Shown: piece after piece, positions 688 through 43,055 of the stretch
How positions within the stretch are numbered: position 1 is the first letter of the stretch
Layout of the letters: each line of letters opens with the position of its first letter
Source of the DNA: a virus
DNA: 43,055 nt
Direction: 5' to 3' (one strand)
IMG/VR virus record: IMGVR_UViG_3300047552_001498
Span: 1-43,055 of that record
Notes under the pieces: generated by a model
The model's database searches: none
What the model was told of the DNA's origin: nothing
What the model saw: the letters and a program-made list of their open reading frames with translations, nothing else
Program-made: the position numbers and the translations under genes

Positions 688-2184
688 TTAAAAAGCAACA
701 GAAAGATCAGAAGCAAAAGCTGCCAGCACCTGCTCGACAGCTCCAGAAGATAACGGCCGCTGCAAGGCGAGTCCAAACTCTTGTATTGCAGGATAGATGT
801 AAGCTAAAATGTCTAGCAGATCATCGACGTTCTTTGTGCGCAGCGGATTCCAGTGAGTAATCTGATGCACGATGCGAGCGTAAACCTCTTGATGCACGCT
901 AAGATGCCCGCCATCGGACGTAAGCAGCTTCAGTGCATTGATGATTCGAGAATTCTTGGTATTGGTACCAGGATAAATCTCGTGCACCTGTACAGCATGC
1001 ATACCATGCCGCTCTTTGGCCTGGTGAATCCAAAAAGCCAGTGTTGCCTGATAAGCAACAGACTCCACCAAGATAGCTGTCAGCCCGTACTTGAGGCAAA
1101 GCTTCAAGCACATGTCAACCTGCTGTGCCGGATTGAATGCATCGACAGCAACTTCTCGCAAGACTGGCTTGCCATCGAAAATGAGAACAGCTCCGATAGC
1201 AACGCTGTCACCTTTACGTTTGCCGGCAGAAGGATCGATAAGCACGAAGCCTGCTTCAGGCTCTTGCGGCAGTCCATCGAATTCGTCTTCTTTGAAGACA
1301 TTGATTTTAGTTATGTCGATGCCTGCCTTGTTCCCTGCTTCGTCATCGTTCATGACTTCGGAGTAGAAAATCTCAGGATGCCCCATGGAGGTATCATTCT
1401 CCAGTTCATCCATGATGTCTTCTACTGATCGCAGTTCAGGCCAGATAGACTGACCGTCGGCAAGAATAGCTCCGCAGATGAAAGAATACCAGGCAGGATT
1501 GCTGCGCAACTTCTTCAGGATAGACCCATCGAACGGATACATGTTCCCGACGAAGATGAATTGGCAGCGCGTCTTGTTGTTAGCTTTCAGCAGCGTGCCG
1601 AGCATCCAGGTAAGAGTCTTAGCTGCTTCGATATGAGACTCAGCTTCTTCGCGAGATTGCATGTCATCCATGATAATGCAATCAGGACGCACGAATTTGA
1701 TGTTAAGGCCGCGAAGAGAGCTACCGGAACCCAGAGCTGCCAGGATAACAGGACGACCAGCAAAAGCAAATTTCTTGAGAGGCTGGGTATCTTTCTCCAG
1801 CCCAATTCTCCAGTCACCAAAAAGACGCTTGATGTTAGGAGAATCTAGAATGTCAACAACGTCTGCAACGAAGTTCTCAGCCAACGCAGCTGTGTTGCAG
1901 ACAACCAGGATGAATCGACGATCGCTGAAGAGGACCAGCCAGACAACATAGAGTTTCAGCAGGATTGTCTTGCCGAATCCGCGAGGAAGCCCGATAGCTA
2001 ACTTATCCTGTCCTTGTTGCTTCTTCGCTCCGTCAGTGAGCAACTGCCAGATAGCAAGAAAGACAGGAGGAAAGAGATAGACAAAAACGTCAGGCAAGCA
2101 GAGAGCCCCAAAGAAGTTGAGATCTTCTTTGGCGGCAGAGATCGCTTCATCTCTGCTTACACCGACAGTGGTAAGTTCTTGCAT
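688..2184 (-). CDS. terL: Terminase large subunit (packaging ATPase and nuclease)
   Basis: This is the motor that drives DNA into the prohead and cuts the concatemer. The predicted protein is 498 residues. A Walker A motif, PRGFGKT, lies at about 67-73 and a Walker B, CIIMDD, at about 169-174, with D in the place of the usual catalytic E in DE. The C-terminal RNase H-like nuclease shows an acidic residue in VLIDPSAG (about 317), E in ILVES (about 374) and D in VDDLLDILAY (about 454-458). I choose the ATG at 2184, which overlaps the stop of the upstream gene as TAATG. A longer reading to 2217 would begin inside that gene. The RGFGKT type is common in podoviruses. Confidence in family is high; cohesive-end versus headful cutting cannot be read from it. 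Confidence 0.95.
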   Translation of the reverse strand: MQELTTVGVSRDEAISAAKEDLNFFGALCLPDVFVYLFPPVFLAIWQLLTDGAKKQQGQDKLAIGLPRGFGKTILLKLYVVWLVLFSDRRFILVVCNTAALAENFVADVVDILDSPNIKRLFGDWRIGLEKDTQPLKKFAFAGRPVILAALGSGSSLRGLNIKFVRPDCIIMDDMQSREEAESHIEAAKTLTWMLGTLLKANNKTRCQFIFVGNMYPFDGSILKKLRSNPAWYSFICGAILADGQSIWPELRSVEDIMDELENDTSMGHPEIFYSEVMNDDEAGNKAGIDITKINVFKEDEFDGLPQEPEAGFVLIDPSAGKRKGDSVAIGAVLIFDGKPVLREVAVDAFNPAQQVDMCLKLCLKYGLTAILVESVAYQATLAFWIHQAKERHGMHAVQVHEIYPGTNTKNSRIINALKLLTSDGGHLSVHQEVYARIVHQITHWNPLRTKNVDDLLDILAYIYPAIQEFGLALQRPLSSGAVEQVLAAFASDLSVAF

Positions 2185-2744
2185 TACTTGACAGAAGTGC
2201 CGCGAGAGACAAACCAATAGCCGAGCACGGCCGATGCTTGACCTGTGAGCCAGGCGAATGCTTGCATGGAAATCTCGAACTGCTGAGCCGTAGTCAGCTG
2301 CGACCAGTTAGCAGTGAAATACTGCAACAGCAGGTGATTGATGTAGATAGCCGATCCGGCCAGCAGGACTGTTGCCAACGGGCGAATCAACCGATTGCTG
2401 GCAGCAGCAAAGACAAGCAGAGGACGCATACCACCAGCTGCCTTGAGCTCAGCAGGAGAAATCTGATCAGCAAGCTGAGTAGCTGCGATAGCCTTCATGC
2501 GCTCAGCTTCAACGATGCCATCAGTTTCGATGATTGCAACTTCCTTGCGGCCCTGCGCTTCTTGCTTTGCGATCTCGAGATCTTTCTCCCGCAAAGCAAG
2601 CTGATGCTGAGCCATCGCCAGTTCGTGCTGATTATCGACCAGCTTAGCTTCCCGATCTGCTTTCCGATTCAGCAACGCGAAGATGCCGCCGAGCAGAGAG
2701 CCGACAGTAGAGCTTCCGAGAATTGCGAGGATTGCAGAGATCAT
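2184..2744 (-). CDS. Three-TM holin-like membrane protein with central coiled coil
   Basis: This 186-residue protein has one hydrophobic segment at the N-terminus (about residues 1-25), a charged Gln/Glu/Lys-rich coiled-coil stretch (about 28-85), and two hydrophobic segments near the C-terminus (about 108-140 and 160-182). That layout resembles the three-TM holin family described for phages and gene transfer agents, which permeabilise the inner membrane to release or activate a muralytic enzyme. The ATG at 2744 overlaps the upstream stop as ATGA and its own stop overlaps terL as TAATG, so it is translationally coupled on both sides. The neighbour at 2741-3160 may be the enzyme partner. A structural membrane role is possible; the holin call is inference from topology and context. 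Confidence 0.6.
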   Translation of the reverse strand: MISAILAILGSSTVGSLLGGIFALLNRKADREAKLVDNQHELAMAQHQLALREKDLEIAKQEAQGRKEVAIIETDGIVEAERMKAIAATQLADQISPAELKAAGGMRPLLVFAAASNRLIRPLATVLLAGSAIYINHLLLQYFTANWSQLTTAQQFEISMQAFAWLTGQASAVLGYWFVSRGTSVK

Positions 2745-3160
2745 GATATTTCCAGTTCAAGAGATTCGCCAGCAGCCCAGGCATGAAATGCTGATACGGC
2801 CGGACGACTTACTAAGCCAGCGAGTTGCATCACGCCACGCGAGTTCCGCAGCCGACCAAGCCGCATGCAAGGAGCAATGCAGCCATGAAGCTCTGTGTCA
2901 AAGCCGGAGCCTCCAGCAAAATTCGCCGGATGGATGAGAATTGAAGAGCGAGCAGGAACAGCAAGAACGTGATAGACGAGACCAAACTTCGGAGAGCGCT
3001 TCCAAGCAAGCTGGTAGGTTCCAGCAGGAATGCAAGAGAGCCTCTTGGCATTGTTGAGCCAGGGCAGCTCAAGCGAGAAGACCGAAGTGCTACCAAAAGA
3101 GAAGACACCTGGAGTGCCTTGCTCTGTTGATTGCATTCTTCGAAGAGATACTTTCTTCAC
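2741..3160 (-). CDS. DUF5675-like protein, possible L,D-transpeptidase-like cell-wall enzyme
   Basis: This 139-residue protein shows the features I associate with DUF5675: ELPWLNNAKR (31-40), SCIPAGTYQ, SPKFGLVYHV, then SILIHPANFAG and LHGCIAPC (91-98). The last part looks like the active site of YkuD-type L,D-transpeptidases, which have a histidine followed 14-17 residues later by [S/T]HGC. Here H77 is followed by LHGC with H92 and C94. The gene sits between the probable small terminase and the holin-like gene, with 4-base ATGA overlaps on both sides, a typical lysis-cassette setting. No other free endolysin is recognisable in the genome. The family name is fairly secure, but an enzymatic role in lysis is inference. 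Confidence 0.7.
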   Translation of the reverse strand: MKKVSLRRMQSTEQGTPGVFSFGSTSVFSLELPWLNNAKRLSCIPAGTYQLAWKRSPKFGLVYHVLAVPARSSILIHPANFAGGSGFDTELHGCIAPCMRLGRLRNSRGVMQLAGLVSRPAVSAFHAWAAGESLELEIS

Positions 3161-3714
3161 AGCTTCTCGACCAGCGGAACATCGCCGACGTTGGTGACAG
3201 TGAAAGGCAGCGAAGCAGGAATTTCGCTCGTCAGCAGGCGCGCAGCATTCCGCTGCTCCAGGCGAGCTGCCAACGATTTGGCTGGCAAGGTAGCCATGCT
3301 TCGCCCTTCGATCTCGATGACCTGCTTGTCTTGCGTGAGAGTAAATCGCACACGAGCCGCAGCTGGCAACTCGAGTGAGACAGTCTGAGCAACTGCTTGC
3401 GAGTTCGAAGCAGCATCAGCTGTTCGCCGCTTGGCAGCATTGAGCACCGAGAAGACACGAACAGCTTCTGAAGGCTTCGTGATGAAGGGAACAAGACCGA
3501 CGACCTTCTTCAGCGCTGCTTCTTCGGCTGCGTTGATGTCATTATCGTGAGCAATGAAGGCGGAGAAGTTCTTTGCCTTTGCTTCCGAGACTTGCTGCGA
3601 GACCTCTTCGCTCGCCAGGAGCTGCGAGATGTAAGAGTCATCGCAACCAACAGCCGCCGCTACTTGCGTAGCTGGGATGCCGCGGCCAAGCATTTCAATG
3701 ATCTGGTCTTTCAT
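3157..3714 (-). CDS. terS: Probable terminase small subunit
   Basis: This 185-residue protein begins with a helix-turn-helix-like segment (about residues 1-36: a helix, GIPATQVAAAVGCDDSYISQLL) and continues with helical sequence and a beta-rich C-terminal third. As the first gene of the late operon, two genes ahead of terL, it fits the small terminase, which recognises the packaging site and loads the large subunit. Size and N-terminal DNA-binding motif agree with the family, but no specific signature is present. There is no Shine-Dalgarno sequence before the ATG at 3714. Instead a TATACT box ends six bases upstream, which would give a leaderless mRNA. It overlaps the next gene by 4 bases (ATGA). 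A transcription regulator is the alternative. Confidence 0.6.
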   Translation of the reverse strand: MKDQIIEMLGRGIPATQVAAAVGCDDSYISQLLASEEVSQQVSEAKAKNFSAFIAHDNDINAAEEAALKKVVGLVPFITKPSEAVRVFSVLNAAKRRTADAASNSQAVAQTVSLELPAAARVRFTLTQDKQVIEIEGRSMATLPAKSLAARLEQRNAARLLTSEIPASLPFTVTNVGDVPLVEKL

Positions 3715-3720
3715 GCTTGC

Positions 3721-3726
3721 AGTATA
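3721..3726 (-). promoter_or_regulatory. Candidate -10 box directly before terS
   Basis: On the minus strand TATACT ends six bases before the terS ATG at 3714. This is a good sigma70 -10 box (5 of 6), but 17 bases further upstream I find only TTCCAT, a poor -35. If used, transcription would start at or next to the ATG. An activator binding to the AAGCATCT repeats just upstream could replace the missing -35. Confidence 0.35.
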
Positions 3727-3732
3727 AAGGGG

Positions 3733-3779
3733 AGATGCTTGTAATGGAAGATGCTTAGGCAGCTAGGATGTAGATGCTT
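3733..3779. repeat. Three AGATGCTT direct repeats upstream of terS
   Basis: The octamer AGATGCTT (AAGCATCT on the minus strand) occurs at 3733-3740, 3749-3756 and 3772-3779, and its core ATGCTT appears again at 3713-3718 over the terS start. The spacings are 16 and 23 bases. Position next to the -10-like box suggests operator or activator sites for late genes. Another AGATGCTT lies at about 4071-4078. Confidence 0.6.
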
Positions 3780-4025
3780 AAAAAGTTTAGAAAAATTTTG
3801 CAGGTCTCTTAGATGAACAGCCGTCGTGAGCAGTCAAAAAGGGTTAGTACCCCCCAGGTATCAGACTGGATCTTGCTGGAGTTTGCAGAGCTCTTGTTTA
3901 GAGACGCGGCCAAATGAAGAAGAATCCCCATCAGCGAAGCGAGAAGCGAAGAGAAGCGGAGAAAGATGATCCGCCGAAGCGAAGAGAAGCGAAGCGAAGA
4001 GAGAAAGAAGCGAAGATTCTCAGGA

Positions 4026-4042
4026 GAAAATCGAAGATTTTC
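4026..4042. repeat. Perfect 7-bp hairpin with GAA triloop
   Basis: GAAAATC and GATTTTC are exact inverted repeats separated by GAA, closed by a C-G pair. C(GNA)G triloops are known to form unusually stable single-stranded DNA minihairpins. The sequence lies in the purine-rich non-coding region. Confidence 0.8.
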
Positions 4043-4141
4043 GTAGAGAATCGTAGCGAGCGAGAGCTGAGATGCTTGTTAATGAGCTGAAGCTAAGCGC
4101 ATCCGGGGCTGAATTGTTGGGAGAAGAGAGAAAGAAGCGGA

Positions 4142-4158
4142 GAGAATCGCAGATTCTC
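4142..4158. repeat. Perfect 7-bp hairpin with GCA triloop
   Basis: GAGAATC and GATTCTC are exact inverted repeats separated by GCA, again closed by a C-G pair. It has the same stem length and loop class (GNA) as the hairpin at 4026 but a different stem sequence, which suggests the structure rather than the sequence is kept. Confidence 0.8.
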
Positions 4159-4348
4159 GTAGCGAAGAGAAGCAGAAATGCTCGCAAGAGTGAGCGAGAA
4201 GCGAAGAAAGAAGAGAAAAGACAGCGAGAAGCGAGAGAAAAGAAGCGAGAAAGCGAGAAGAAAGCTGCTAGTTTAGGCTGAGAGATGGCAAAATCGCAGT
4301 AAGGAAGCGAGAGATTTTTGCAGCAGCCGAGGTTTCGCAGCGTGATGA

Positions 4349-4401
4349 GAAATAGAAATAATCGGAATGAAGCAAAGCGTAATGGAGATTGTTTCTATTT
4401 C
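4349..4401. repeat. Long 15-bp hairpin with one wobble position
   Basis: Left arm 4349-4363 (GAAATAGAAATAATC) pairs with right arm 4387-4401 over 15 positions, 14 Watson-Crick plus one G-T. The loop is 23 bases and purine-rich. There is no T-run on either side, so it does not look like a terminator. Confidence 0.75.
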
Positions 4402-4424
4402 TACAGCACGATGCTTCCTCTTCA

Positions 4425-4501
4425 TCTTAGCTTCTCTTAGCGTAGTGGAGAATTGCAGAGCGAAGCAAAGCGAAGCGGAGCAATTTGGAAAGAAGCTAAG
4501 A
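4425..4501. repeat. Nested hairpin: 11-bp outer and 6-bp inner stem
   Basis: TCTTAGCTTCT (4425-4435) pairs exactly with AGAAGCTAAGA (4491-4501). Inside it AATTGC (4451-4456) pairs with GCAATT (4480-4485), enclosing two copies of AGCGAAGC. The arrangement suggests a folded single-stranded structure in DNA or leader RNA. Confidence 0.65.
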
Positions 4502-4508
4502 GTAGCGA

Positions 4509-4578
4509 TCTGCGAAGCAGACTAGATAAATAAATCAATGCCTTTGTGCGAAGCACACTGTTAAGCTGCGAAGCAGCT
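4509..4578. repeat. Three tandem GCGAAGC minihairpins
   Basis: Three perfect stems with GAA loops follow one another: TCTGC-GAA-GCAGA at 4509-4521 (5 bp), TGTGC-GAA-GCACA at 4545-4557 (5 bp) and AGCTGC-GAA-GCAGCT at 4564-4578 (6 bp). All share the core GCGAAGC, a heptamer known for forming an exceptionally stable DNA hairpin. The outer stem bases differ between copies but remain complementary, which is compensatory variation. Confidence 0.85.
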
Positions 4579-4621
4579 AATTTCGGAACGGAGCGAAGCG
4601 GAGTGGAGAAATTTTTTTTTG

Positions 4622-4647
4622 GCTTATATAAGGAGTTGCTTATATAA
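4622..4647. repeat. GCTTATATAA direct repeat pair, 16-bp period
   Basis: GCTTATATAA occurs at 4622-4631 and 4638-4647. Each contains the palindrome TTATATAA. The pair lies immediately beyond the minus-strand terminator at 4650-4682, where a promoter for the late operon could be expected. No standard -35/-10 pair can be assigned. Confidence 0.5.
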
Positions 4648-4649
4648 CG

Positions 4650-4682
4650 GGAAAGAAAAAAGCCAGTTGGTTAGACTGGCTT
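4650..4682 (-). terminator. Rho-independent terminator of the 5735-4691 operon
   Basis: On the minus strand the 8-bp stem AAGCCAGT / ACTGGCTT with a 7-base loop is followed by TTTTCTTT. It starts eight bases after the stop codon of the gene at 4691. It closes the small minus-strand operon and separates it from terS. Confidence 0.88.
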
Positions 4683-4690
4683 CGTAGTGT

Positions 4691-5110
4691 TTAGAAGTAA
4701 ACGTGTGACTTCCAGATGAATTTCGTGAACTCCATCCGTTGCGGTCCTTGCTCCTTCTCAAGTTGCGCGATTGCCTCTTCGCGCTGAGAGAAGAAACACG
4801 GGAAAGATGCTACTTGCACATTAACCGGCTTTCCGGTGATCGGGTGCTTTGCAGTTACGATCATCTTTAGATAACCGTCAACGTCTGCAATACTGGGCTC
4901 CGGCTTCTGTGCGGTCGCTTGCAGCAGAGTTCGCAGGGTGTAATATGTTTCGGTGTATCCTGCGAGATCGCTCCCTGCAGGCAGTGGTGTTGATATTCCC
5001 ACGCTACCGTCGGGGTAGTAAATAACATGTCCGAGATCGTCAGGGCTTGCGCCGTCTGCGATTCTCAACGCTGCAAGTCTTGCGGCTTCTCGTGCTTGGT
5101 GATTGTTCAT
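4691..5110 (-). CDS. Unknown protein, second gene of the isolated minus-strand operon
   Basis: I do not recognise this 139-residue protein. I place the start at the ATG at 5110 (MNNHQAREAARLAALRIADG) because AGGAG lies nine bases upstream; the frame stays open further back without a better site. The N-terminal half is helical and alanine-rich, the middle contains DLGHVIYYPDGSVGIST (beta-like), and the C-terminal half is basic with QREEAIAQLEKEQGPQRMEF. No membrane segment or catalytic motif is visible. It lies 25 bases after the gene at 5136 and just before a strong terminator, so the two form one transcription unit divergent from the early genes. Gene-expression or host-takeover roles are possible but unsupported. 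Confidence 0.75.
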   Translation of the reverse strand: MNNHQAREAARLAALRIADGASPDDLGHVIYYPDGSVGISTPLPAGSDLAGYTETYYTLRTLLQATAQKPEPSIADVDGYLKMIVTAKHPITGKPVNVQVASFPCFFSQREEAIAQLEKEQGPQRMEFTKFIWKSHVYF

Positions 5111-5135
5111 GATTGGATGCTCCTGCTTTGGTTGT

Positions 5136-5735
5136 TTAGAATTCGTCCTCTTGAGATACTTTCGAGATGATCGCATTGCATCTTGTCAGGATAAATTCGC
5201 CGATGTCTGAGTCTGCATCGCCAGCAGTGAAGCGTGCAACGATGGCGGCGGCTTCGCCTTGGGTGAAGATTCCAGCGTAAGAAGGTGCTGCGATCTTTGG
5301 AAGTTTCGTTTTCCAGGTCAGTTGTTGACGCTCAGTCAAAATGCCGAATGTTTCCGAAGACAAAAGCCATTCGAGGATTTTTGCTCCATCAATGGCAGCG
5401 GCGTCTTGTTTCTGTTTGTAGAATGCCATTACGGCGTGAATATCGATTTCCTCGGCTTCCACGCTTTTCAGGTCCGGGCTTTCCTCGATCATGCTTTGAA
5501 ACTTCTCATTCGCCAGCTGATAGATTGTCGCCTGCAGTAGTGCATCAAAGGGGCGTACTCGAACAGCTTCTGGGATTCTCAACAGATCAGCGGGGATGAC
5601 CACTCCGCGAAATGCGTTCTCCGGCTTCACAGGGTTCTGCTTCGTGGACCGGCGGCGCCAAAAAACACAATGCTGGTCGTTCTCCAGCTTTGCCGGCTGA
5701 ACGGTGAGAACTTGAAAAGCGGTAACAGTCGTCAT
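5136..5735 (-). CDS. Unknown protein, first gene of the isolated minus-strand operon
   Basis: This 199-residue protein is not recognised. I start it at the ATG at 5735 because GGAG is positioned eight bases upstream (TAGGAG); the frame extends upstream but would overlap the promoter. Residues about 20-35 contain a basic stretch (FWRRRSTKQNPVK) and the rest looks helical and acidic. Its order of segments loosely resembles the abundant unknown protein at 11655-12314 (an ALLQATIYQL-type helix, then an IDIHAVMAF-type segment, then a Trp-containing helix), but I cannot show homology by eye. A TATAAT box precedes it at 5796-5801. It may be an early or constitutive phage protein. Confidence 0.75.
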   Translation of the reverse strand: MTTVTAFQVLTVQPAKLENDQHCVFWRRRSTKQNPVKPENAFRGVVIPADLLRIPEAVRVRPFDALLQATIYQLANEKFQSMIEESPDLKSVEAEEIDIHAVMAFYKQKQDAAAIDGAKILEWLLSSETFGILTERQQLTWKTKLPKIAAPSYAGIFTQGEAAAIVARFTAGDADSDIGEFILTRCNAIISKVSQEDEF

Positions 5736-5795
5736 GATCGAAACTCCTAGATTTAACCGGACTTTAAAATCGGCGCCGGTTTGTGCCGTGCTTGT

Positions 5796-5801
5796 ATTAT
5801 A
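5796..5801 (-). promoter_or_regulatory. Minus-strand promoter (-10 TATAAT) of the isolated operon
   Basis: A perfect TATAAT on the minus strand would start transcription near 5789, giving a leader of about 54 bases before the ATG at 5735. The -35 region is poor (TCTGGA or similar at 16-17 bases), and two TAACAG sites lie just upstream at 5833-5850, so regulation by a bound protein is plausible. The leader contains the palindrome CGGCGCCG. Confidence 0.55.
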
Positions 5802-5831
5802 AGGGAAAAGCAAGCTCTCCAGATAAGAAAG

Positions 5832-5969: not shown

Positions 5970-5992
5970 CTTGGGGGCGCAGCATCCCCAAG
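5970..5992. repeat. CTTGGGG/CCCCAAG hairpin
   Basis: A perfect 7-bp inverted repeat with a 9-base loop (GCGCAGCAT). There is no T-run on either strand, so it is not an obvious terminator. Function unknown. Confidence 0.6.
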
Positions 5993-6064: not shown

Positions 6065-6077
6065 TTTGCGAAGCAAA
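6065..6077. repeat. GCGAAGC minihairpin, second region
   Basis: TTTGC-GAA-GCAAA forms a perfect 5-bp stem with a GAA loop. The segment GCGAAGCARACTAGATAAA is shared with the hairpin at 4509-4521, linking the two non-coding regions. Only one position differs over 19 bases. Confidence 0.75.
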
Positions 6078-17255: not shown

Positions 17256-19484
17256 ATGAAGTTATTGTTTGTAGGTGACGAATATCTTGGTGACAAAGAG
17301 CACATGCATACGCTTGCCAGATTGCCTGCGCTTGTAGGGCATCAAGTCAGCACCACATTCAGCAAGCGTCCGAATGCAACAGAGATTGCAATGATCTGCA
17401 AGTCTAATAACATCGACGGTGTTATCTGTTCGCAGCAGACTCTCTTTGAAGCAGCTCTTCGGTCGCAAGTTGACTTCATTCCACCGCCTAATCGCAAGGC
17501 GCTGTCACTGAATGATTACGCAGGTTCGTGGCTTGATCTGCCGTACAACATTCCACTGCTTGTAGTGAATCCTCTCAATCGGCTTGTCACCGTGCCGGAA
17601 GAGCGATTCATGCTTAATCGTTATGTCTCCAAGTTGACGAAGCCTGAGCGCTGGTATCCCCAGACAGACTTCAAATGGAAGCAAGTCTTTGAGCACACAG
17701 CTGATGAAGCCTTTGCAATCATCGAAGCCAGTGACCTCTGTGCAATCGACATTGAAACAATCGGCGACGAGATGCGCTCGATTGAGCTTGTAGGCTATGC
17801 AGCTTACAGCCACACAACAAAGCAACTGCACATCTTTGTTGTCCACATGAATAGTGAATGGGCTTGGCGCTTCGTGCAGAAGGCAAATGCCAGCAGCCCT
17901 CAGAAGATTTTTCAGAACGGGCAATACGACAATACGTACTTTGCTCGCTGGAACTGTATGCCCAACAATTGGCTTTGGGATACGCTCACATTGATGCATT
18001 GCTGGTACTCTGAGCTGCCGAAGAAGCTGGACTTCATTGCCAGCTTCGCGCTCCGCAAGATGCGTTACTGGAAAGATGACGGCAAGTCCGGCAGCATGGA
18101 AGACAAGATGCGTTATAACGCGCTTGACGTGTGGGCTACCTTGAATTCTTTCTTGGCAATCATCGCTGAGATGCCAGAATACGCGATGCGGAATTATCTC
18201 ATCGAGTTCCCGATGAACTTCCCTTCGCTGAATGCTGCACTTGAAGGCATTCGAGTTGACGAAGCTCAGTTCCATAAAGTGCGAGAAGCGAAGAAGCAAG
18301 AAGCTGAGAGCCTGCTGGAGAAGGTTCGTTACTGGCTTTCCTCTCCTGATTTCAATCCTCGCAGCCCTGTGCAAATGAAGCAACTCTTCAGGCTGCTAGG
18401 TTGCGGGGCTCTTCCTGATACTGCAAAGGCTTCGCAGCTGAAAGCGCGAGCAGCTTCTCCGCTGAATGATCTGGTGCTCGGGCAAATTGCCAAGTACAAA
18501 GAAGCGGCGAAGCTCGTGTCTAGCTATCTTGATCCTGATAAACTCTGGAACGGGCGCTGGTATTATGCAATCGATCCGGCCGGCACTGACACTGGCAGGT
18601 CTGCTTCGCGAGCATCTGCTTTCTGGTGTGGTGACTCCATTCAGACTATCCCGCGCGGCGATGCAATCAAGAGCTTCATGATTGCAGATCCTGGTTATTA
18701 TCTGGCCGAAGCAGACAAGGCGCAAAGCGAAGCACGCTGCGTCGGTTATCAGGCAGGAGAGACTTCGCTCATTGAGCTGGTAGAAGGTCCGCACGATTAC
18801 CATGCTTGGAATGCTCAAGCGTTCTTCGGAGTTCCTTACGAGACAATCTACGACGAAGCCACTGGCAAGACAATCAACAAAGATTTGCGTGATCTGAGCA
18901 AGCGCACGAATCACGGTGCCAATTACAACATGGGCGCAAACGTGATGCTGGACACGATGGGCCCTAAGATGGTAGCAAAAGCTAAGAGCATTCTTGGCTT
19001 GGCTCCGAAGATGCCCTTGAAGCAAGTCTGCGCACACCTGCTGGAGACTTACGCAAAGACCTACCCTAATGTCAAAGGGCTCTTCCAAGAAGTTATTATC
19101 CGCCAGATCGAGTTGACTAACACGCTAGTCTCTCCGCTCGGATGGACTCGCTGGTTCTTCGCTAAACCTAGCAAGACGAACAAGCCTGCACTGAACGCAG
19201 CTGTAGCGCATGGCCCGCAGAATCTTTCTGTCTCGATTCTTAACATCGAATGGTACAAGATCTGGCGAATGACAGTTTATGGAGAGTTCCGCGGGCTTGT
19301 TCGCATCAAGGCTCAGATTCATGACAGCATCTTTTTCCAGTACCGCAAAGATTTCGATCCTGAGCAGGTGCTGAAGTTGATGCATACTCCTGTCACTGTC
19401 ACAGGCGCTGACGGTAAGAAGCGCACCATGCTGATTCCATCTGACATGAAGAAAGGGGCTTCTGCATGGAGCAACCTCAAGTAA
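17256..19484 (+). CDS. Family A DNA polymerase with 3'-5' exonuclease
   Basis: This 742-residue enzyme replicates the phage DNA. The proofreading domain has ExoI AIDIET (D165, E167), ExoII NGQYD (N221, D225) and ExoIII YNALD (Y287, D291). The polymerase domain has DTGRSASRAS (445-454), motif A EADKAQSEAR (485-494), motif B KRTNHGANYNMG (549-560) and motif C QIHDS (687-691), with HDS instead of the more common HDE. The N-terminal 130 residues are not related to T7 polymerase and may be a protein-interaction domain. A GGAGG site six bases before the ATG fixes the start. It overlaps the helicase gene downstream by 19 bases. Family certainty is very high. Confidence 0.97.
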   Translation: MKLLFVGDEYLGDKEHMHTLARLPALVGHQVSTTFSKRPNATEIAMICKSNNIDGVICSQQTLFEAALRSQVDFIPPPNRKALSLNDYAGSWLDLPYNIPLLVVNPLNRLVTVPEERFMLNRYVSKLTKPERWYPQTDFKWKQVFEHTADEAFAIIEASDLCAIDIETIGDEMRSIELVGYAAYSHTTKQLHIFVVHMNSEWAWRFVQKANASSPQKIFQNGQYDNTYFARWNCMPNNWLWDTLTLMHCWYSELPKKLDFIASFALRKMRYWKDDGKSGSMEDKMRYNALDVWATLNSFLAIIAEMPEYAMRNYLIEFPMNFPSLNAALEGIRVDEAQFHKVREAKKQEAESLLEKVRYWLSSPDFNPRSPVQMKQLFRLLGCGALPDTAKASQLKARAASPLNDLVLGQIAKYKEAAKLVSSYLDPDKLWNGRWYYAIDPAGTDTGRSASRASAFWCGDSIQTIPRGDAIKSFMIADPGYYLAEADKAQSEARCVGYQAGETSLIELVEGPHDYHAWNAQAFFGVPYETIYDEATGKTINKDLRDLSKRTNHGANYNMGANVMLDTMGPKMVAKAKSILGLAPKMPLKQVCAHLLETYAKTYPNVKGLFQEVIIRQIELTNTLVSPLGWTRWFFAKPSKTNKPALNAAVAHGPQNLSVSILNIEWYKIWRMTVYGEFRGLVRIKAQIHDSIFFQYRKDFDPEQVLKLMHTPVTVTGADGKKRTMLIPSDMKKGASAWSNLK

Positions 19485-20773
19485 GTCTCTTCGATCTTTA
19501 TTTCGATTATGTTGCTGGCACTGAACCTCCAGCAGCATTCCATCGCTGGAGCCTTATCGGTAGCATCGGTGCTTTGCTTGGCAGGCAGATGTGGTTTCCT
19601 TTTGGCAGATCACGGCTGTTCGCCAATCAATACATCATGTTCGTCGGCGATCCAGGAACTCGCAAGAGCACAGCAATCAAGACAGCTACACGCCTGATTG
19701 CAGCTGCTGGTTACGACAAGTTCGGCGCTCAGAAGACTTCGATGGAGAAGTTCTTGCTTGATCTGCAAGATGATGGAATCGATGTTGATGAAGTTGCAAT
19801 CGGAAATGCGCCGAAGAAAAAAGATGCGATCGATGTACTGTCAGCTTTGAATCTTCGTCTCGATGGCGATCACGTCGAAGAGTCTCCGAGAGAGATGTTT
19901 GTTGCAGCGGATGAGTTTAATAACTTCATCGGCGCAGGCAACATCTCTTTCCAGTCTCTGCTCGGAGAGCTTTGGGATTGGGATGAACCTGACAGGCATT
20001 ACAAGCAGCGGCTCAAGAACTCGAAGAGCGTCAGCATCTATCAGCCCACTATCAGCATTCTTGCTGGCAACACCCCCAGCTCTTTTGCTGAATGCTTCCC
20101 GCTTGCGTCTATTGGCCAAGGCTTTATGTCGAGACTGATCTTGATTCACGCAGAACCTAGCGGAATCAAGATCACCTTTCCGAAAGAGCCATCTAAAGAG
20201 CTGACTGAGAAGCTGGTCTCTCATTTGCGCAAGATGCGGCAAGTATGCATCGGGCCAGTAACGATGACTGAAGAAGCTGCATCAGCTTTAGATCTTATCT
20301 ACAAGAGCTGGACAGATCTGGAAGACCAGCGCTTCAAGCATTACTCGACGCGGCGATTTACGCATCTGCTGAAGCTGACGCTTATCTGCTGCGCTGCAAG
20401 ACTCTCCACAGAGTTCACAATCGCTGATGTGCTTTATGCAAATACGATTCTTGCTTACGCTGAGACTACGATGCCGAAAGCTATCGGAGAGCTTGGCAAG
20501 AGCCGTAATGCAGAAGCTGCGAACAAGATCATGCAAGCTCTTTACACTACCCGAGACGTGAAGACAGTTAACGATCTGTGGAAAATCGTGCAGAATGACC
20601 TAGAGAAGATTGGAGATTTGGCAGGCTTGCTTGTCAATCTCCAACAAGCAGACAAGATTCAAGTAGTTAACAACGCAGCAGGAAAGGCAGGTTATTTGGC
20701 CAAACAGAAACCACTTAGCAGAACACTCCCATTCACAAATTTTGAGATATTGAAAGGCAAAGAATACAAATGA
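19466..20773 (+). CDS. DUF3987-like replicative helicase/ATPase
   Basis: This 435-residue protein has Walker A GDPGTRKS (61-68), Walker B MFVAADE (144-150) and a sensor-like SILAGNTP (about 205-212), in the order of DUF3987-type P-loop proteins that often accompany phage and plasmid replication genes. It probably acts as the fork helicase. No TOPRIM or other primase domain can be recognised, so the source of primers is unclear. The C-terminal 80 residues look like a winged helix. Its ATG lies inside the end of the polymerase gene with AAAGGGG upstream, so expression is coupled. Confidence 0.82.
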   Translation: MEQPQVSLFDLYFDYVAGTEPPAAFHRWSLIGSIGALLGRQMWFPFGRSRLFANQYIMFVGDPGTRKSTAIKTATRLIAAAGYDKFGAQKTSMEKFLLDLQDDGIDVDEVAIGNAPKKKDAIDVLSALNLRLDGDHVEESPREMFVAADEFNNFIGAGNISFQSLLGELWDWDEPDRHYKQRLKNSKSVSIYQPTISILAGNTPSSFAECFPLASIGQGFMSRLILIHAEPSGIKITFPKEPSKELTEKLVSHLRKMRQVCIGPVTMTEEAASALDLIYKSWTDLEDQRFKHYSTRRFTHLLKLTLICCAARLSTEFTIADVLYANTILAYAETTMPKAIGELGKSRNAEAANKIMQALYTTRDVKTVNDLWKIVQNDLEKIGDLAGLLVNLQQADKIQVVNNAAGKAGYLAKQKPLSRTLPFTNFEILKGKEYK

Positions 20774-41677: not shown

Positions 41678-43055
41678 TTATTGCGGGGGTTGCTGTTGTT
41701 GAATTTTGAAGTCGTCGATCCAGGTAGCTCCTTCCAGTTTAAGCCAGTAAAAAATCATTCCCATCACATCCCACTGCTTGAGCAGATCAGGATATTGACC
41801 AACAACCTGCAACACGCTGCCGAACAGTTCCATGTTGATGTAGGCGCCTGTAGGCATCAGGCCATCTGCCATGCGGAATTCCATCGCGGTGTTCCGCAGG
41901 GTGACAGGATCAATAGTGACCTGCTTCTTGCCTGCGCGGTTGTAGAGAGTTGTTGGCGGCTGAAACTGCAGAGTGTTCAGCTTGAGAATTGTCTTCAGCG
42001 GCGTGAACAGCCGATTTTCCAGAATCAGCGCATGCATCCGCGGACGTGCGTTGGAATGCTCCATCGTATCGGAGAATTCGTGACGCGTCTTGTTGCCACG
42101 CTGGAACTGCCCACGCTGCACTCGGTTCTGACCGTTTGCAACATCTGCCATCGCAAGGCACTGCTCAGCGATGCCAAAGATCTGTGCCACGTTGTCATCG
42201 CGATACGGCATCTGGTAAACAGCTTCGCTGAGAGGCTTGCCGTAAGCAGCGCTCTTGATCGGAATGCGAGCAACGGGAGACACGTTGTCGATATCCGATT
42301 TGTTGATGCGAGAAGGATCGTAAATAAGACGATCGTAAACCTTGCGCCGCTGGCTTTCCAGCCCGGAGTTGTAGAGAGCCGAAGCAGTAGCCTGGAAAGA
42401 AGCTGCCTTGTCAGCGAAGCTCTTGCTTTGCCAGCCCAGGCCATCTTCTGTCGGCTGCGCAACAATGATCGGCAGGAAGTTATGCGCATTGCTTTGCAGC
42501 TCTGCGTAAATCAGCACCTTACGATTGACGATGATCAGCTTCCAGATTTGCGGGATGCTGTTGCCAAACTTGTAAAGCTTGTGCTCGCTTGGCATGATGC
42601 GAGCATACAGGGTAGTGACCTCGTACATGTTACTGTACTTGATCTTGTTGGAGTTTTCTTCGACCCCGGCCCAAGCGTGCCAATTGAAGCCACCTGCAAT
42701 GTTCTGCGCAGTAGCAGCATCGACGAGCGCCTTGCCATTGATCTGGGGAATGAAGAAGTACGAATCGCCAGGAGATGTCGTGTACGAAGCTTCGCCGGAC
42801 TCGAACGCAAGTTTCGCGTTCATGGTCTTCGTAGCATCGAGTTCTGCAATTCGCTGCTTCAGTTGCACGCGAGATACCAGCTCCATGTGGCCGACGTATT
42901 CACCTTTCGTGTGAACCTCGTGCGGAGCAACACGCACATCAGCGATCAGGTTGTAGGGATTGATTCGGCGGATCGCATTGCCAGCAAACAACGTCTCCGT
43001 CGGAGTGCCATGTTTGATGTCTTGCAGCGCGTTGTTTTCGACCGTGTAAACACGC
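41678..43055 (-). CDS. Portal protein, C-terminal part (starts at 678 through the circle junction)
   Basis: The open frame runs from the window end down to a TAA at 41678. The true start is the GTG at 678, reached through the overlap of 42863-43055 with 1-193. Beyond the overlap it contributes 394 residues (42862-41678), bringing the protein to about 620. This part contains SYFFIPQINGK, IWKLIIVNRKVLIY, and the helical stem-like region NGQNRVQRGQFQRGNK, with a C-terminal Gln/Pro tail. Both pieces are in frame, so the cut is an assembly boundary, not a broken gene. It is the DNA channel of the head. Confidence 0.88.
   Translation of the reverse strand, partial: RVYTVENNALQDIKHGTPTETLFAGNAIRRINPYNLIADVRVAPHEVHTKGEYVGHMELVSRVQLKQRIAELDATKTMNAKLAFESGEASYTTSPGDSYFFIPQINGKALVDAATAQNIAGGFNWHAWAGVEENSNKIKYSNMYEVTTLYARIMPSEHKLYKFGNSIPQIWKLIIVNRKVLIYAELQSNAHNFLPIIVAQPTEDGLGWQSKSFADKAASFQATASALYNSGLESQRRKVYDRLIYDPSRINKSDIDNVSPVARIPIKSAAYGKPLSEAVYQMPYRDDNVAQIFGIAEQCLAMADVANGQNRVQRGQFQRGNKTRHEFSDTMEHSNARPRMHALILENRLFTPLKTILKLNTLQFQPPTTLYNRAGKKQVTIDPVTLRNTAMEFRMADGLMPTGAYINMELFGSVLQVVGQYPDLLKQWDVMGMIFYWLKLEGATWIDDFKIQQQQPPQ
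42863..43055. repeat. Right copy of the terminal overlap
   Basis: Matches 1-193 with one synonymous difference (A at 42929, G at 67). See the left copy for interpretation. It is counted once in the circular genome of about 42,862 bases. Confidence 0.93.

Follow-up and report, generated by a model that had tools for sequence, protein, structure and literature searches.

A one-stranded array of C(GNA)G DNA hairpins beside a probable terminase cut site in uncultivated relatives of Fredfastierviridae

To our knowledge, functional hairpins are rare in natural double-stranded DNA genomes and comprise the promoters of phage N4, single-strand initiation (ssi) sites and a few more. The N4 promoters P1 (GTTGC.gaa.GCAAC) and P2 (AAGAAGC.gga.GCTTCTT) both carry a C(GNA)G loop and have it on the template strand. 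The d(GCGAAGC) minihairpin is of extraordinary stability, and tandem sheared G.A pairs as well as GNA turns are stable DNA motifs. Tailed phages also possess promoter stem-loops of the T4 PeSL type, and hairpin-primed copying of the genome end has been proposed for concatemer processing in T7. For lagging-strand initiation of pBR322, primosomal proteins were reported to be necessary, and PriA-PriB binds DNA hairpins (PMC4129139).

We analyzed a virus record of 43,055 nt (IMGVR_UViG_3300047552_001498, in its entirety referred to as the window) that carries C(GNA)G hairpins upstream of the gene for the small terminase. The ends of the record (1-193 and 42863-43055) overlap by 193 bp with one mismatch. 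The record is thus a circular assembly, despite which the virus is probably linear inside its capsid. TerL, TerS, portal, head, lytic transglycosylase and a 1646-aa virion protein are encoded leftward; helicase, nuclease, Sak4-like, DNA polymerase A and primase/helicase-like genes run rightward. The window is distantly related to Fredfastierviridae. Among isolates it comes closest to Aeromonas phage P5, EBPR podovirus 3, Polaromonas phage Tiera and Pseudomonas PaP2 (Fredfastierviridae), with which its TerL shares 32-36% identity. A search for direct nucleotide relatives among isolate phages found none, and the relatives used for comparison are metagenomic. An upstream 225-aa protein was dropped as a search anchor, being too divergent. 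The features of the window are as follows.

688-2217, minus strand: large terminase TerL (phrog_38, E 3.8e-55)
3157-3714, minus strand: small terminase TerS (phrog_16503, E 1.7e-7)
3772-3856, minus strand: cut-site-like element of about 85 bp, GGGGGG-N-CCCTTTTT-N20-ATCTA-N-AAATTTTTCTAAACTTTTT, matched by a profile HMM
3810-3814, minus strand: core of this element, ATCTA (TCCTA in most relatives), on which the record junction of Tiera and the starts of contigs L270 and L009 fall
3915-4260, plus strand: polypurine tract with many GCGAAG words and a strong G and A skew
4026-4042, plus strand: C(GAA)G hairpin GAAAATC.gaa.GATTTTC, 7-bp stem
4142-4158, plus strand: C(GCA)G hairpin GAGAATC.gca.GATTCTC, 7-bp stem
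4337-4414: large imperfect palindrome AGAAATAGAAA..TTTCTATTTCT
4509-4521, plus strand: C(GAA)G hairpin TCTGC.gaa.GCAGA
4545-4557, plus strand: C(GAA)G hairpin TGTGC.gaa.GCACA
4564-4578, plus strand: C(GAA)G hairpin AGCTGC.gaa.GCAGCT
4659-4683, minus strand: intrinsic terminator of the leftward genes at 4691-5813
6065-6077, plus strand: outlying C(GAA)G hairpin TTTGC.gaa.GCAAA, with right flank CTAGATAAA in common with the hairpin at 4509
19466-20773: primase/helicase-like protein

All six hairpins listed by the first-pass annotation are present where it placed them, and no other C(GNA)G triloop hairpin with a stem of at least 5 bp occurs on the plus strand of the entire window. By the same measure the minus strand has two, which lie elsewhere inside coding sequence and are unrelated to the array. 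The six are confined to two intergenic gaps, and five of them occupy the gap upstream of TerS (3715-4690), where 0.05 (dinucleotide shuffle) to 0.23 (order-5 Markov, a control that keeps the GA-rich words of the gap) were expected. Five hairpins were reached by 0 of 2000 controls of each kind. The array is thus well in excess of chance. The polypurine tract, the imperfect palindrome and the cut-site-like element in this gap were missing from the earlier annotation. The array sits between TerS and the terminator of two leftward genes and, because of that terminator, outside their normal transcript.

The first hairpin (4026-4042) is extended across a small internal loop by an outer 7-bp stem formed by GATTCTC (4015-4021) and GAGAATC (4046-4052). 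The units at 4509, 4545 and 6065 share the form T-N-TGCGAAGCA-N'-ACT and differ in a single stem pair, which is C-G at 4509, G-C at 4545 and T-A at 6065. This is covariation within the window itself. Three of the hairpins lie about 650-720 nt and one lies 2.2 kb from the conserved element. The exact flank of the unit at 4509 and 6065 had no match in IMG/VR, and a pattern search for the paired TGCGAAGCA returned many matches in unrelated contigs, part of them chance or coding. In bacterial genomes GCGAGCGNAGCGAGC is widespread and found chiefly within open frames, and its matches there are therefore uninformative. REP/BIME-type repeats were set aside, as the array has constant loops and variable stems and REPs show the reverse. 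Separately, a strong hairpin CTTGGGG-GCGCAGCAT-CCCCAAG with GCGCAGC inside its loop is found at 5970-5992 of the window.

The element between the array and TerS emerged from an alignment of the TerS upstream regions of TerL relatives. Its consensus on the TerL strand is GGGGG-N-CCTTTTT, about 20 nt, TCCTA and CTAAAnTTTT. A profile HMM built from 32 phages/copies matched the window copy with 49 bits (E 7e-13) and the PaP2 copy, 127 nt upstream of PaP2 TerS, with 44.6 bits. The element was present in about 60 loci of a first set of phages, PaP2 among them. A second, more distant set had it in 51 of 71 loci (E < 1e-3), which brings the related loci to more than 100 (e.g. L012, 2058-2142). The authors of Tiera used PhageTerm to look for genome ends and rearranged the genome, with no end type stated for Tiera (PMC9959647). 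The last and first bases of the Tiera record meet within the core of the element (junction piece, 3.7e-7), and the metagenomic contigs L009 and L270 both start at this core. Because all three ends coincide with the core, we infer that the element is probably a terminase cut site, cos- or pac-like. It resembles the cos/pac sites of tailed phages in being a conserved sequence that immediately precedes TerS and has putative termini at its core. We know of no cos site that features a hairpin array on its far side. Certain copies (e.g. in L022 and L044) resemble intrinsic terminators, which may represent a second function of the element. The element, which is new here, probably marks the packaging cut of a wide podovirus-like group that includes PaP2. 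The array's position beside it favors the link to packaging or priming that the first-pass annotation had proposed.

Hairpins were counted in 56 non-redundant phages over the 300 nt that flank the element on the side opposite TerS. C(GNA)G motifs with stems of at least 2 bp occurred 87 times in the plus orientation of the window and 11 times in reverse, compared with 25.1 and 13.5 in order-2 Markov controls that keep the local skew (maxima 41 and 25 in 100 runs). By strand, the counts within these 300 nt were 18 vs 0 for stems of at least 4 bp and 12 vs 0 for stems of at least 5 bp. The bias is gone beyond about 300 nt from the element and likewise on the TerS side. Counts from a single phage depend on one another, which makes the per-phage sign test the cautious measure: 22 phages vs 4 (p = 5e-4), or 21 vs 4 without the window. 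Across all TerL relatives, GNA hairpins show no general enrichment in coding sequence and a modest one in noncoding sequence, so that position relative to the element is the key. A stem of at least 4 bp or the extended motif described below was found within 300 nt in 18 of 54 first-set phages.

The motif search was tuned on this first set, which leaves the second set as the sole independent check, a weak one given the scarcity of the GNA motif there: 34 more distant phages have the element and few GNA motifs, which split 6 vs 0 by strand. Since the second set keeps the element with few GNA motifs, the module does not require the array, and since its polarity recurs there at low density only, the array is mainly a trait of the window's clade. 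Stem sequences show no relation between phages, and L053 has similarly flanked repeat units around ACTCGC/GCGAGT, GTCGC/GCGAC and GCCTGC/GCAGGC. The first-pass annotation had suggested that structure is kept while sequence varies, and this is borne out by the covariation in the window and by complementary yet unrelated stems between phages. It had also argued that a loss of stem complementarity in relatives would speak against its idea; here the outcome is split, as the motifs near the element strongly favor one strand and have complementary stems in the window's clade, but most relatives are without perfect stems of at least 5 bp. Hairpins of this kind recur in related phages with position and strand unchanged, and the structure therefore looks selected.

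Within the 300 nt beside the element, an extended motif GA-N-C(GNA)G-N'-GA was found 28 vs 0 times by orientation. Its architecture is a GNA turn on a two-pair stem with a tandem G.A step below. GA/GA is by far the most frequent dinucleotide pair in this position (30 cases; the next pair has 6). Of 35 cases, 21 had arms outside the G.A step that were complementary over 2 bp or more, vs 4.4 with shuffled partners (maximum 11 in 2000 shuffles). Selection on structure is favored because a constant G.A mismatch step is not what mutation by arm copying would produce. A 61-nt query for the ColE1-type plasmid backbone matched more than 2000 plasmid records, and this backbone contains the form GA-GC(GCA)GC-GA. 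The matching stretch is presumably the origin side of ColE1/pBR322, near mapped primosome sites.

The primosome assembly (ssi) sites of ColE1/pBR322 and phiX174 are thus one point of comparison. The likeness consists in strand-specific single-stranded DNA hairpins on what is proposed to be the lagging-strand template, and for ColE1 also in the backbone motif GA-GC(GCA)GC-GA that is shared with the extended form of the phages. As in ssi sites, the hairpins of the array are confined to a single strand. The phage array differs in that it adjoins a probable terminase cut and shows no clear enrichment of the PAS-type hexamer AAGCGG (7 on the GNA strand vs 3 on the opposite strand). The array also has the same DNA turn as the d(GCGAAGC) minihairpins, which come from oligonucleotide studies; here the turn occurs in natural polar arrays.

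We consider it likely that the array is a selected DNA structure tied to a genome-end module. According to the explanation that we regard as best overall, to which we assign a probability of roughly 0.35, the one-stranded array belongs to this module and is used as single-stranded DNA for priming. The array would be an accessory of the module, in which terminase would cut at the 85-bp element upstream of TerS. By analogy to lambda-type phages, the array side of the cut would be packaged last and be first into the next cell: if packaging starts at the TerS side, the array end would be first out of the capsid. The hairpins would act as single-stranded DNA. With a fork moving rightward from the end region to the early genes, the plus strand would be the exposed lagging-strand template, and its hairpins might serve as ssi sites or as docking sites for a primosome or primase. 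The plus strand as lagging-strand template of a rightward fork and the ColE1-type backbone motif led us to choose ssi-like replication priming as the likeliest mechanism, which we favor tentatively. Several results count against the explanation: AAGCGG lacks a clear enrichment, GNA motifs are few in the second set, only 18 of 54 first-set phages have a stem of at least 4 bp or the extended motif, and four hairpins of the window lie about 650 nt or more from the element.

A packaging signal of the cosQ or pac type, which we hold to be a possible but rather unlikely function, would be read by terminase or a partner at the last-packaged side and lead it to stop and cut. Packaging sites are directional, and the hairpins of the related phages lie within 300 nt of the probable cut with a polarity fixed relative to it. 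However, many phages keep the element without hairpins, and hairpins need single strands, in contrast to packaged DNA, which is a duplex and under tension. Somewhat less probable still is that the array has no function and is a mutational by-product, in which nascent or lagging strands fold back at GCGAAGC seeds and the stems become perfect through template-switching. Such a process accounts for perfect but unrelated stems, strand bias and a GCGAAG-rich background, and long GNA palindromes occur in many unrelated phage contigs too. It does not predict the confinement to about 300 nt from the element, nor a tandem G.A step with complementary outer arms.

We think it improbable that the hairpins function at the RNA level, where a rightward noncoding transcript from the cut region would bear them for decoy, antitermination or stability purposes. 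Strand polarity suits RNA as much as a DNA strand, a T9 run follows the array at about 4612, and folding z-scores are negative. Yet an Rfam search, low threshold included, gave nothing credible, and a promoter scan of the region found no excess over shuffles. Leftward transcription stops before the array (4659-4683), the downstream genes are convergent, and the loops are triloops, not GNRA or UUCG tetraloops, which suggests DNA.

Intergenic hairpins are also a likeness to the T4 PeSL type and to palindromic promoters of Aeromonas phage P5, which have GNA loops too, but the P5 hairpins lie between divergent TTGACA promoters and the window array is without flanking promoters of that kind. In P5 (L015), long palindromic divergent sigma70-type promoters, TGTCAAGGG..CCCTTGACA, were observed at about 5015, 12170, 18045, 38030 and 45140, and these enclose C(GNA)G hairpins. 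As further observations, two IMG/VR phage contigs (L139, 365-4892; L155, 590-5117) hold 16-17 perfect GNA-loop palindromes of 7-15 bp, plus palindromes whose loops are of the CTTTAG type, all within or around a gap of 1 kb close to a terminase gene. In a repeat-rich stretch of L196 (8591-11150), hairpins of the C(GTA)G or C(GAA)G form number 36, and CAATCCC.gta.GGGATTG is frequent among them.

Copying of the genome end primed by the hairpins during concatemer processing, on the model proposed for T7, would fit podovirus-like genes, the genome-end position and the one-strand polarity, but the Tiera record has no terminal repeat and we regard this as quite unlikely. As for N4, the comparison drawn by the first-pass annotation is correct for the type of loop, since P1 and P2 are both C(GNA)G hairpins on the template strand, and like them the array combines 5-7 bp stems and C(GNA)G triloops, here near a probable genome end. 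Its remark that no N4-type polymerase is seen also holds: phmmer with the N4 RNAP domain, which gave 2426 bits on N4 itself, found no match in the window or relatives, and a PF00940 search was silent on the window with its control equally silent. The array further differs from N4 in its many copies, its opposite strand for inward transcription and its lack of a common 5' flank. N4-type promoters, at which supercoiling would extrude the hairpins and the plus strand would be template for leftward transcription across the cut into TerS, have stem length, loop and a GNA strand that is template toward TerS in their favor, but are the least probable reading and very unlikely, as no vRNAP homologue or CCAAAA-like 5' flank was found, a sequence search of the PDB gave no match for the 1646-aa virion protein, transcripts on linear DNA would run off the presumed leading end, and for inward transcription the GNA strand would be the non-template strand if the far side leads.

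The array may tentatively be viewed as part of a new class of genome-end module, consisting of a cut site and a strand-locked single-stranded DNA hairpin array that is defined by structure (GNA turn, tandem G.A step and covarying stems), located at the presumed leading end and read by a putative phage or host factor. Next to a probable packaging cut, a clade of uncultivated phages has preserved a fold specific to DNA, and has done so with one polarity. The array raises the testable question of which enzyme reads single-stranded DNA hairpins at a genome end, and the element provides a handle on the position of genome ends in over 100 phage contigs from metagenomes.
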